Source of the DNA: Synechococcus sp. PCC 7502
GTDB taxonomy: Bacteria; Cyanobacteriota; Cyanobacteriia; Pseudanabaenales; Pseudanabaenaceae
Assembly: GCF_000317085.1 (NCBI RefSeq)
Contig: NC_019702.1
Location: forward strand, 1 to 64,000
Length of the DNA stretch: 64,000 bases
Reading direction: 5' to 3'
Position numbers and translations under genes: made by a program. Positions 30,601 to 54,298 of the stretch are shown piece after piece. Numbering within the stretch: the first letter of the stretch is position 1; each line of letters opens with the position of its first letter. The notes beneath the pieces are model-generated. The model was not told the DNA's origin. It did not search any database and worked only from the letters and a program-made list of their open reading frames with translations.

Positions 30601-30629
30601 TAGCCTCCTAATTACACCATGAGATCACT

Positions 30630-32819
30630 ATGAATCTGTCAAATAATCAACCTAGTCCTGATCAACAGATTCAACACTTTAGTAAGCTGACTCAGCAAAG
30701 TTCGATGAAGGTTTTTGAGTGGGGAAACTCAAAGTTTCGAGCGATCTTTGCAGGTGCCGCATTTGGGATGGCGATCATTAATTTAGATGGGAAAATTATT
30801 GAAAGTAATTTAACTTTGCAACAGATGCTTGGATATGCCGAAAATGAACTATTTGGGGTTTCTCTGACTGATCTAATTCTGCCTGAAGATATTAATGATG
30901 GTTTTGAGTTTCTGACCGATTTCGCAATTACGGATCACCACCGCATAGACAAGCGTTGCATTTGCAAGCTAAACCAAGTTATTTGGGTGCGCCTGACCAT
31001 TTCATTAATTCGCAATATTGATAATTCGCCTCATTTTTTCATTGGTATTTGTGAAGATATTACCATTCAAAAACAGGCTCAGGAAATGAGTCATAGTGCT
31101 GAATTACTGCAGGTGATTTTAAATAATATCCCCCAATTAATTTTCTGGAAGGATCGCAATTCCATGTATCTGGGCTGTAATAAAGTCTTTGCAGATGCTA
31201 TGGGCTTAACTTCTCCCGAACAAATTATTGGGATGTATGATTACGATTTGCCTAGTATTACTTTTGCCGAAGCTGAAAAATATCGAGCAGTTGATCTGCA
31301 AATTATGGAAAGCGATCAAGCTCAACTGGGAATTATAGAATCTCAGCCAAATTCCAATGGTAAAGAAATGTGGGTGGAACGCAATAAAATTCCGATTCAT
31401 AATAGTTCTGGAGATGTAATTGGAATTTTGGGTACGCTTCAAGATATTACACTCAATAAACAAGCAGAAATCTCACTCAAAACATCGTTATCCAACCTTC
31501 AAGAAGTCCAAGCAAAACTGAAATATGATGCCTGCCATGATTCCCTAACGGGTCTTTACAATCGGTTTTGGCTAATCGAAAAGCTGAAGCAGATCATGGG
31601 TAAGAACAGTTTGTACGCTGTACTATTTATCGATCTCGATCGCTTTAAGGTAATTAATGATAGCTTAGGGCATTTAGTTGGAGATGAATTACTGAGACAA
31701 GTTGCCCAGAGACTACAAGAGTGTCTAACAAAAAATAATTCCACAGTCACTAGGCTTGGTGGCGATGAATTTATCCTACTTTTGGAAGATATTGATGATT
31801 TACCGATCGCTACTAATTTAGCAACCCAGATTCAATCACAATTGCGGCTGCCATTTAATCTCCATAATTACGAAATTTATATTACCGCCAGTATAGGGAT
31901 TACGTTTGGGATAAAGACATATCAACAACCTGAGGATATCTTAAGAGATGCTGATATTGCCATGTATCAGGCAAAAAGTAAGGGAAACGGTCGCTATGAA
32001 GTTTTTAATCCTGAAATTCTAGCGGGATTGATGGAACGGTTAAGCCTTGAGAATGATTTACGCAGAGCGATCGCCAACCAAGAATTTTTTTTAGACTATC
32101 AACCTTTGATTTCCTTATCCGATCAGAGTGTGTGTGGATTTGAAGCGTTAGTCCGTTGGCGGCATCCAGCTAAAGGCATAATTTCTCCCAACCGATTTAT
32201 TCCCATTGCCGAGGAAACTGGTTTAATTAACCCCTTAGGCTTTTGGATTCTGCGTGAAGCCTGTCAGCAAGCTCAATTTTGGCTTCAAGCATTTTATCAA
32301 CAGTCACCGTTCAGTATTAATGTCAATCTCTCGCCTATGCAACTGAAGCAACCAGATTTAGGATGTCAAGTTAGACAAATTCTTGCTGAAACTGGCTTAC
32401 CTGCTTCATGTTTAAAGTTGGAAATTACGGAAAGCTGCATACTAGAAACCGATAGCTCACAACTTATAATCCTCAATCAATTAAAAGAAATGGGAATTAA
32501 GCTTTGCATTGATGACTTTGGAACTGGCTATTCTTCCCTGGGGCGATTGCATGAGTTTCCCATTGACACCTTAAAAATTGATCGCTCATTTGTCAAGCGC
32601 ATTGACTCTGGAAGCACAGAAATTATCGAAATGATTTTGGCTTTAGCTAAGGGTTTGAATATGAATACAGTAGCTGAAGGCATAGAAAACTTGGAGCAAC
32701 TGCACAGGTTAATACAACTGGGCTGTCACTATGGGCAAGGCTATTTATTTGCACAACCACTCGATCTCCACGCTTCAACCCAATTTATTCGGAAATTTGC
32801 CAAAAAAAGTCTGACTTGA
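30630..32819 (+). CDS. PAS-PAS-GGDEF-EAL c-di-GMP turnover protein
   Basis: 729 residues. Two PAS domains (about 35-150 and 155-275) precede a GGDEF domain with an intact GGDEF motif (377-381) and an EAL domain with EAL at 505-507. EAL metal and catalytic residues look intact (NVNLSP, EITES, DDFGTGYSS, KIDRSF, AEGIE). So both synthesis and hydrolysis of cyclic di-GMP are possible. No membrane segment is visible, so it is probably cytosolic. Which activity dominates cannot be told from sequence. Confidence 0.92.
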   Translation: MNLSNNQPSPDQQIQHFSKLTQQSSMKVFEWGNSKFRAIFAGAAFGMAIINLDGKIIESNLTLQQMLGYAENELFGVSLTDLILPEDINDGFEFLTDFAITDHHRIDKRCICKLNQVIWVRLTISLIRNIDNSPHFFIGICEDITIQKQAQEMSHSAELLQVILNNIPQLIFWKDRNSMYLGCNKVFADAMGLTSPEQIIGMYDYDLPSITFAEAEKYRAVDLQIMESDQAQLGIIESQPNSNGKEMWVERNKIPIHNSSGDVIGILGTLQDITLNKQAEISLKTSLSNLQEVQAKLKYDACHDSLTGLYNRFWLIEKLKQIMGKNSLYAVLFIDLDRFKVINDSLGHLVGDELLRQVAQRLQECLTKNNSTVTRLGGDEFILLLEDIDDLPIATNLATQIQSQLRLPFNLHNYEIYITASIGITFGIKTYQQPEDILRDADIAMYQAKSKGNGRYEVFNPEILAGLMERLSLENDLRRAIANQEFFLDYQPLISLSDQSVCGFEALVRWRHPAKGIISPNRFIPIAEETGLINPLGFWILREACQQAQFWLQAFYQQSPFSINVNLSPMQLKQPDLGCQVRQILAETGLPASCLKLEITESCILETDSSQLIILNQLKEMGIKLCIDDFGTGYSSLGRLHEFPIDTLKIDRSFVKRIDSGSTEIIEMILALAKGLNMNTVAEGIENLEQLHRLIQLGCHYGQGYLFAQPLDLHASTQFIRKFAKKSLT

Positions 32820-49987: not shown

Positions 49988-50332
49988 ATGGAACTTTGGG
50001 AGCAGGTCAGTCGGCAACGGGTGCAATACATCATCGATAGCTATGAACTTGATGGTGAAGATGGTGAGGATTTCAATGACTATTTAGAAGAACTACTAAT
50101 TGCCTATGCGCCCCCACAAATTGAATTAGCGATCGTGGAAACCATCGTTGCCAGTTGGCTTAAATTGCCTTCAACCAAAGGGATAGAATTTATGGAGCAG
50201 GCACATGAACGCTTGAAGGCTTGGGAAAGTAACTTTCAAATAACTATCACCCCTTCACAATTTCGTCAGATTACTGGACTTGACCCTACTCCAGTATTTG
50301 GTCAGTATCGCAATAATTTTTGTCTTAGCTAG
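49988..50332 (+). CDS. Small conserved hypothetical protein
   Basis: Not recognised. 114 residues, acidic in the first third (DGEDGEDFNDY), mostly helical with a C-terminal half near ITPSQFRQITGLDP. No membrane segment. Its stop overlaps the convergent ComFB gene by 8 bp. Function unknown. Confidence 0.6.
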   Translation: MELWEQVSRQRVQYIIDSYELDGEDGEDFNDYLEELLIAYAPPQIELAIVETIVASWLKLPSTKGIEFMEQAHERLKAWESNFQITITPSQFRQITGLDPTPVFGQYRNNFCLS

Positions 50333-51386
50333 GTAATTCTAGGTCAAGCTGTTTACGGCGATCGCGGGGAACCCACACTAACTCACCCCTTAGTACCTGT
50401 TCTAAGGCATCCTGCACAACCATAGCCACATTTTGCCAGTTTAGGTCAGTAACCTGTAAGATATCCTGCAATTCAATTATGGCTAATTCCTGCTCATGGG
50501 AAAATCTATCGGCGGGAATTGGTGGCAAAAAACGGGATGGGGATTTTAAGATTGTAATTACTCCCTGTCTGACGGTGACGAGAATATCCGATGACAACTC
50601 GGTGCGGGCGCGTTCTCGCCAATACTTTAACCCACTTTCACTAGTGGCATACATTGGAGGTAAACGATTCAGAGCATAGGCTGAGACTTCTTCTAGGGTT
50701 ACACGCTGACTTAAATTATCGGCAAGCTTGCTAATCTGTCTCTGTGCGACTGAAGCTACTAAATTTTCTAAGGTATTAACAAAATTCCAAGAAGCAGGTG
50801 CCATATAGGAGGCAAACTCTTTCATCTCGGTCATTTGGATAATGTTATCACCAACGAGGGGGCGAGAAGTTTTAGCTTTCCATGTTAACTCTTCGGAGTG
50901 ACGTTTAAGGTAATCAGAGACAGTGGAGGCATCACGCAAAGCTTTGCTTTTATAGGTACTATAGGCAACTGCTCCTTTGAGCTTGATCTCCAATAGTGCC
51001 TTTTCCACAGCATCGGGAACATCACGCCAACGCAGATCAGAGATACCTAAAATTTCCTGTAATTTTAATAGCGATCGCTCTTCACGCTCTAGCTCACTGT
51101 CAGGGAGGGGGGTATTATCTTTGAGGGAGTCTTTTTTAACACCAATTAGTCCTTTGCTAATGGTTTGAGCTATTTCCTGTTTCATGTCCGTGTGGGCGCG
51201 CTTTTGCTGCTGGATATAACCACGGCGGGTGGTGGCATACATCGGAGGAAGACGGTTTAAGGCATAGGCAGCCACTTCATCAAGGCTAGGTTTAGCTTTG
51301 ACCGCAGAAGACAAGCGGGAAATTTGGGCTTTGATCTCTTCTACGACTAATTCTTCGATCGCATTTCGACAACCTTGGATCGCCAT
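50325..51386 (-). CDS. Tandem ComFB-domain protein (c-di-nucleotide receptor type)
   Basis: 353 residues made of two repeats of the same module. AYALNRLPPMYAT occurs at 40-52 and again at 236-248. Each is followed by a second conserved patch, ILGISDLRWRDVPDAVEKAL (112-131) and a close copy, ILQVTDLNWQNV, near the C-terminus. ComFB proteins (CdgR in Nostoc) bind cyclic di-GMP and cyclic di-AMP. Single-domain ComFB is the usual form; a fused double is less common. The module linker has a basic stretch. A c-di-GMP enzyme gene lies in the window at 30630. Confidence 0.85.
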   Translation of the reverse strand: MAIQGCRNAIEELVVEEIKAQISRLSSAVKAKPSLDEVAAYALNRLPPMYATTRRGYIQQQKRAHTDMKQEIAQTISKGLIGVKKDSLKDNTPLPDSELEREERSLLKLQEILGISDLRWRDVPDAVEKALLEIKLKGAVAYSTYKSKALRDASTVSDYLKRHSEELTWKAKTSRPLVGDNIIQMTEMKEFASYMAPASWNFVNTLENLVASVAQRQISKLADNLSQRVTLEEVSAYALNRLPPMYATSESGLKYWRERARTELSSDILVTVRQGVITILKSPSRFLPPIPADRFSHEQELAIIELQDILQVTDLNWQNVAMVVQDALEQVLRGELVWVPRDRRKQLDLELPS

Positions 51387-52864: not shown

Positions 52865-53485
52865 ATGCTCAAAACACTAATTATTGCCAGTAGTAATGCG
52901 GGAAAAGCAGCCGAATTGCAGGAGCATTTAAATAAATTTTCCGATCAGCTTGATAGTGAATCTACATTTGATTTGAGATTTGATCTTAGGCTTAAGCCCC
53001 AAAATATTGAGGTAGAGGAAACTGCAACTACATTCCTTGCTAATGCTCACCTCAAGGCATCTCAAGTGGCGATCGCTACTCGGTCATGGTCTATTGCCGA
53101 TGATTCGGGTTTAGAAGTAATGGCACTCAACGGCGCACCAGGGATATTTTCGGCAAGGTATGCTAATTCTGATTCTGAAAGGATTAAACGACTTCTAACC
53201 GATATGGAACATCAACCTAATCGGCTGGCACAATTTGTCTGTGCGATCGCCATTGCTGATCCCAATGGAGACATTAAAGCTGAGGCGGTGGGAATTTGTG
53301 CGGGTGAAATTATCGATGCGCCCCGTGGTCATAGTGGCTTTGGCTATGATCCTATATTTTATGTGCCTGAATATCAGCTAACCTTTGCGGAGATGCCCCC
53401 AGAGTTAAAAGCTCAAATTAGTCACCGAGCCAAGGCAATGGAGATTCTCAAGCCTCAAATTTTACAATTATTTTCGAGATTGTAG
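52865..53485 (+). CDS. rdgB: XTP/dITP diphosphatase
   Basis: Cleans deaminated purine nucleotides from the pool. The 206-residue protein has the HAM1/RdgB motifs SSNAGKAAEL, ADDSGLEVMALNGAPG and HSGFGYDPIFYVPE, and a C-terminal SHRAKAM. The 3' end overlaps the convergent CNB gene by 18 bp. Confidence 0.95.
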   Translation: MLKTLIIASSNAGKAAELQEHLNKFSDQLDSESTFDLRFDLRLKPQNIEVEETATTFLANAHLKASQVAIATRSWSIADDSGLEVMALNGAPGIFSARYANSDSERIKRLLTDMEHQPNRLAQFVCAIAIADPNGDIKAEAVGICAGEIIDAPRGHSGFGYDPIFYVPEYQLTFAEMPPELKAQISHRAKAMEILKPQILQLFSRL

Positions 53486-54298
53486 TTCTGATTCTAGCAA
53501 TTGCAGATGATTACCTAGGTCTTGGACTTCTTGTAAAATCATTTCAATATTCACTTCATTTTTGAGATTTACTTTATAGTCAGCTTCACTACGGATGCGA
53601 TCGCGGATGGCTTTACGGTTTTGACTCATCACGATTAAAGGTCCTTGCAATGCCACAATAATTGCTAAGAGTAAATTAAAAAACACGAATGGATAGGGAT
53701 CAAAAGAATCACGCAGGATAATTGGAGAATTCACTAGCATCCACACCAAGGTTAAGCCACCCAAGGACACAATAAACATCCAACTACCATTGAGTTCGGC
53801 AACTCGGTCGGCAAGGCGATCGCTCCAACTTAAATTCCGTTCTATTTGTTCTTCAATATTCACCGTTGCCCGTTGGGACAGTAATAAATTGGTCTCCCGG
53901 AGCCTCTCTGCCATAGTCCGCAGAATTGTCATTGCTACCCGTGGTTCGGCATGGATATAACTAGCTAACATTTCTCTAGTTAATTGTAATAGTTCCACAT
54001 CCGTGGCAGCGATCGCACTGGCACTGCGAGGTTTATCATCAATTAAAGCCAGTTCTCCAAAGTATTCACCCCGAATTAAATCCTTCAGAGATATGGATTC
54101 GGAGGTATTGTCAAGCACGGAAATATTCACACAACCCCGTACCACAACGTACATGGTGTCACCAATATCACCTTGCTTAAAGATTACTTCCTTGGCTTTG
54201 TAGCTTTTGACATTAACAGCGTATGCCAAAAAACTGAGGTCTTCACTACTCAGTCCCTTAAATAGAGGGATACTTTGGAGCAGGGCATTTTTATTCAT
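53468..54298 (-). CDS. Cyclic nucleotide-binding + DUF1003 membrane protein
   Basis: 276 residues. A cNMP-binding domain occupies about 1-130, with the phosphate-binding cassette YFGELALIDDKPRSASAIA, where the Arg is kept. A DUF1003-like region with two membrane segments follows, containing FDPYPFVFFNLLLAIIVA and MSQNRKA. So it is a membrane protein that may respond to cAMP or cGMP. A C-terminal coiled coil ends it. Ligand and output are not known. Confidence 0.85.
   Translation of the reverse strand: MNKNALLQSIPLFKGLSSEDLSFLAYAVNVKSYKAKEVIFKQGDIGDTMYVVVRGCVNISVLDNTSESISLKDLIRGEYFGELALIDDKPRSASAIAATDVELLQLTREMLASYIHAEPRVAMTILRTMAERLRETNLLLSQRATVNIEEQIERNLSWSDRLADRVAELNGSWMFIVSLGGLTLVWMLVNSPIILRDSFDPYPFVFFNLLLAIIVALQGPLIVMSQNRKAIRDRIRSEADYKVNLKNEVNIEMILQEVQDLGNHLQLLESELQSRK

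Follow-up and report, generated by a model that had tools for sequence, protein, structure and literature searches.

The ComFB/CdgR proteins are a recently recognised receptor family whose dimer takes two ligand molecules, and the binding of c-di-GMP and c-di-AMP that the original prediction ascribed to this family is borne out by published work (PMC12313861; PMC13075795). In Synechocystis, dimeric ComFB binds c-di-AMP (2.6 micromolar) and, with similar affinity, c-di-GMP (PMC12313861). The CdgR dimer takes two molecules of c-di-GMP, and CdgR works partly through DevH (PMC13075795); complexes of ComFB with SyCRP1 and SyCRP2 are mentioned in a review that cites later work (PMC13249358). ComFB proteins with one module form homodimers (PMC4381287; PMC12313861), and the ComFB of B. 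subtilis is an obligate dimer held together by N4, E7, D33, N40, and Y46, with N4K, E7K, and Y46F each turning it monomeric (PMC4381287).

Here we describe D1, a 353-aa protein with an ATG start, encoded on the minus strand at 50325-51386 of the window, i.e., the whole 64,000-nucleotide stretch of Synechococcus sp. PCC 7502 DNA that was analysed. Pfam family PF10719 (ComFB) matches D1 in two stretches (whole-protein E 1.5e-40; 137.5 bits against a curated cut-off of 25), each half passing the cut-off separately, and BLASTP of residues 1-195 against residues 196-353 gave 37% identity over 136 aa (E 2e-29), far beyond chance. These matches uphold the description of D1 as a fused double ComFB protein. 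Against NCBIfam NF052654 (late competence protein ComFB), D1 scored 26.7 bits, below the equivalog cut-off of 120. The ~195 residues initially given for each module stand as the repeat period (196 residues) but not as the length of the module, which is ~133 residues, 83 of them belonging to the Pfam core and the rest to an extension; the period is longer since a 63-residue linker separates the two modules. On the minus strand, the N module (residues 3-135) thus lies at 50982-51380, the linker (residues 136-198) at 50793-50981, and the C module (residues 199-332) at 50391-50792, both modules consisting of ComFB core and C-terminal extension. Both copies of AYALNRLPPMYAT are where they had been placed, at residues 40-52 (A40-T52; 51231-51269, minus strand), spanning helix H2 and a beta-stretch, and at residues 236-248 (A236-T248; 50643-50681, minus strand). 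The second conserved patch claimed for each module was found as the C-terminal extension (SL.KLQ.IL...DL.W..V, at approximately residues 101-128 and 298-325). Within the linker, the basic motif YLKR (residues 159-162; 50901-50912, minus strand) matches the pattern [YH][LIV]x[RK], which occurs in the linkers of 54 of 94 distinct doubles, 10.4 being expected from shuffled linkers; since the doubles compared are related, this motif is a lead rather than a test. A plus-strand, 114-aa ORF (49988-50332), which has no Pfam or NCBIfam match, is convergent with D1 and overlaps its end by 8 bases.

Alignment with B. subtilis ComFB placed N8, E11, E37, N44, and Y50 of the N module, and N204, E207, E233, N240, and Y246 of the C module, at the five interface positions, all of which are kept in both modules in 68 of the 94 distinct doubles (D or E, and Y or F, being accepted). 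AYALNRLPPMYAT represents mainly the known ComFB dimer interface (PMC4381287) rather than a proven ligand signature. Each half of D1 also matches the Synechocystis CdgR-c-di-GMP structure 8hja (E ~4e-13 each; 4.5e-13 for the N half alone), and the Arg and Tyr residues that the original prediction regarded as ligand-binding are present in both modules (R45/Y50 and R241/Y246). D1 begins directly at the ComFB core, however, without the N-terminal region of CdgR (LTPAMEAEVGR..., ~60 residues) and, in the alignment, without its K-[QK]-F-I lead-in. Of the 54 columns conserved at ≥85% in 19 CdgR-type proteins, the N module keeps 26 and the C module 29, many of them being interface residues, and substitutions relative to CdgR include Arg to Q61 in the N module and Gln to W256 in the C module. 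We conclude that D1 is a true member of the ComFB family, fused and lineage-specific, and strictly not a CdgR. The single-module ComFB protein of the same genome, which carries the CdgR N-terminal region and matches 8hja at E 4.5e-57, is a clear CdgR orthologue.

Since that genome already has a genuine CdgR, the doubles may no longer sense nucleotides. D1 could then be a protein-protein adaptor that has kept the ComFB fold and interface and lost nucleotide binding, its repeated motif being structural and CdgR being the only such sensor in the cell. What both modules retain is for the most part the set of residues at the dimer interface, found also in B. subtilis ComFB (PMC4381287), and D1 lacks the N-terminal region of CdgR and roughly half of the columns conserved in CdgR, all of which would suit such an adaptor. 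However, 93% of N modules and 91% of C modules of the 94 doubles retain the Arg of LNRLPP, although this Arg is not needed for the fold, since B. subtilis ComFB carries Lys at this position. The first Arg of YQRxRA is likewise kept in 76% (N) and 78% (C) of doubles, D1 having Q61 in its N module and R257 in its C module. We regard a complete loss of nucleotide binding as a tentative and rather unlikely explanation. By analogy with ComFB/CdgR, the balance tips slightly towards D1 binding at least one of the two dinucleotides; such binding is no more than plausible, given that its modules are asymmetrically conserved and lack the 60 N-terminal residues of CdgR. At the level of sequence, the halves of D1 are non-equivalent: E17, W57 (Y in D1), Q60, D86, L88, E98, and P124 typify the N modules alone, and N319 typifies the C modules alone. 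Two functional, equivalent sites are less likely than asymmetric halves and, considering Q61 in the N module and R257 in the C module, we infer that, if one half only binds, it is more likely to be the C half.

An AlphaFold2 model of full-length D1, built from 24 doubles, reached a mean pLDDT of 86 and a pTM of 0.77, its weak spots being mainly the linker, where confidence is mostly low except in the last helix, and the C-terminal end. The C module resembled Synechocystis CdgR (8hja_A; Z 9.7, 1.6 A over 89 residues) and, at Z 6.4, B. subtilis ComFB (4wai); RNA polymerase sigma subunits were rejected as structural relatives, their weak VIA-align score (Z ~3) reflecting common helical arrangements. 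When the C module was modelled alone, pTM fell to 0.54, pLDDT dropped at residues 191-200 (from 89 to 48), 241-250 (from 96 to 86), and 281-290 (from 82 to 66), and the single-residue bridges at 249 and 289 vanished. These losses are read as contacts with the N module in full-length D1. Together with the interface residues in both modules, they make the proposed intramolecular dimer likely, i.e., confidence scores and predicted secondary structure point to the two modules packing in cis as a pseudo-dimer. Pairing in trans with other chains, giving higher-order oligomers or cross-linked partners, would be sterically possible across a linker with a median of ~61 residues and mostly low model confidence, and would resemble the homodimers of single ComFB proteins. 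Considering, however, that pTM is 0.77 for the whole chain versus 0.54 for one module, and that N and C modules have diverged systematically, as expected of a fixed N-C pair, trans pairing seems improbable.

The genome that encodes D1 holds five doubles (325 to 478 aa) in addition to the single-module protein. A survey of how common such proteins are, with one genome per species and its depth in cyanobacteria, showed double-type matches in 38 of 38 Pseudanabaenaceae genomes, usually in several copies. In a phylum sample of 386 genomes, matches spanning both modules in one frame occurred in all four Pseudanabaenaceae and in 0 of the 382 others. ComFB doubles are thus present throughout the Pseudanabaenaceae, in about five versions per genome. 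A mobile-element origin was rejected, as D1 had no match in phages or plasmids. The literature on c-di-GMP in Pseudanabaena yielded no paper on a double ComFB protein; we regard the double as a variant, specific to this lineage, within an established receptor family, and tandem ComFB proteins may already have been described.

Several other ComFB architectures were observed. Paralogue D5 (L013:5783-7219) has a coiled-coil-like N-terminal region with a weak PspA/IM30 match ahead of its two ComFB modules, and one paralogue group (L011, L017, L022, and L038) has a conserved C-terminal region of ~80 residues beyond module 2 that has no Pfam match. In another cyanobacterial family (L188:1464-2762 and L189:1583-2869; G344 and G385), DUF4388 is fused to a ComFB domain at the C-terminal end, which might connect ComFB with response-regulator-like proteins, and in genome G318 (L190:2464-3534) one ORF joins a putative IscB-like N-terminal stretch, in the same frame, to an entire CdgR-type protein.

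A tree of 50 doubles contained several deep paralogue groups common to different genera, with D1 pairing weakly (86/68) with a paralogue from genome G003 (L052). A second tree, of 124 modules, needed no more than 4 and 2 changes to account for the N and C labels, ~39 being expected by shuffling. The exact branching is unsure because of weak forks and long branches; the overall picture fits a single fusion early on, after which the paralogues multiplied. The closest relatives of the doubles outside the Pseudanabaenaceae are single extended ComFB modules, and two such genes adjoin, unfused, in Symploca (L179) and Phormidium (L181), which is how the state before fusion would look. In Cyanobacteria bacterium M5B4, a double is split into two ORFs ~23 bases apart (L167:1021-2024; the same as L040), either by natural fission or by an assembly frameshift. 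Although this split and the presence of five doubles in one genome might suggest that D1 is superfluous or in decay, a duplicate with no function of its own, the frames stay open, and the spacing of the modules and the interface residues are preserved, over 38 genomes and deep paralogue groups, making such a reading highly improbable.

Since the genome of D1 contains 13 GGDEF, 9 EAL, and 1 DAC domains, both c-di-GMP and c-di-AMP are probably present in the cell. The GGDEF-EAL gene of the window (30612-32816, plus strand) has both motifs intact, but its proposed link to D1 is weak, as it lies 18 kb away, shows no operon link, and is one among the 13 GGDEF and 9 EAL domains of the genome. The proteins flanking D1 shared no context across orthologue and paralogue loci, so no partner can be inferred from synteny. 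CRP-type regulators are encoded in the genome. A cyclic-nucleotide-binding domain joined to DUF1003 is encoded near D1, at 53468-54298 of the window. The genome that carries D1 measures 3.58 Mb in 3 contigs, with a chromosome of 3,510,253 bases.

We propose that an extended single ComFB module underwent tandem fusion once, in the ancestor of the Pseudanabaenaceae, and that later paralogue expansion produced the five doubles of this genome, D1 among them. The modules of D1 are predicted to pack against one another at the interface known from classical ComFB dimers, forming a one-chain pseudo-dimer with non-equivalent halves. As in ComFB/CdgR, c-di-GMP and/or c-di-AMP would probably be bound in at least one half, and liganded D1 would act as a soluble adaptor that makes another protein more or less active; a transcription factor of the CRP family or a regulator of pili is the probable partner. 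Through its linker and its C-terminal extensions, which have diverged, each paralogue may have a partner of its own. We give this scheme as a whole, adaptor role included, a probability of about 0.5. In a more speculative version, which we think quite unlikely, D1 would be a one-chain heterodimer with c-di-GMP in one half and c-di-AMP in the other, and the five paralogues would each integrate both signals for a separate target; if so, an expansion of two-input sensors would take the place of some of the usual receptors in the Pseudanabaenaceae.

A covalent, asymmetric double, fixed across the Pseudanabaenaceae in approximately five paralogues, offers a natural test of which half of the receptor does what, and the doubles suit half-by-half dissection because mutations can be placed in one half at a time within the same chain. 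The ratio of one single CdgR to five doubles also points to a strong diversification of c-di-nucleotide signalling in this family. Should the doubles bind no nucleotide, they would be a case of a receptor dimer converted to an adaptor.

Among the known systems, the CdgR/ComFB proteins of cyanobacteria (Synechocystis Slr1970, PDB 8hja; Anabaena Alr3277) share with D1 the ComFB core with AYALNRLPPxYAT. CdgR, however, works as a homodimer of single modules and has a conserved N-terminal region of 60 residues, whereas D1 lacks that region and has two modules per chain, joined by a linker and each with a longer C-terminal extension. B. subtilis ComFB (PDB 4wai) has the ComFB fold and the interface residues in common with D1 (PMC4381287; Z 6.4) but is a single module with a four-cysteine zinc site. 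Since C6 is the only cysteine of D1, a zinc site of this type is absent and the identity of D1 as a zinc-binding ComFB was ruled out. The extended single ComFB proteins of other cyanobacteria (L191, L168-L174, and L192-L198) have the same ~133-residue module and second conserved patch as D1, with one module each.
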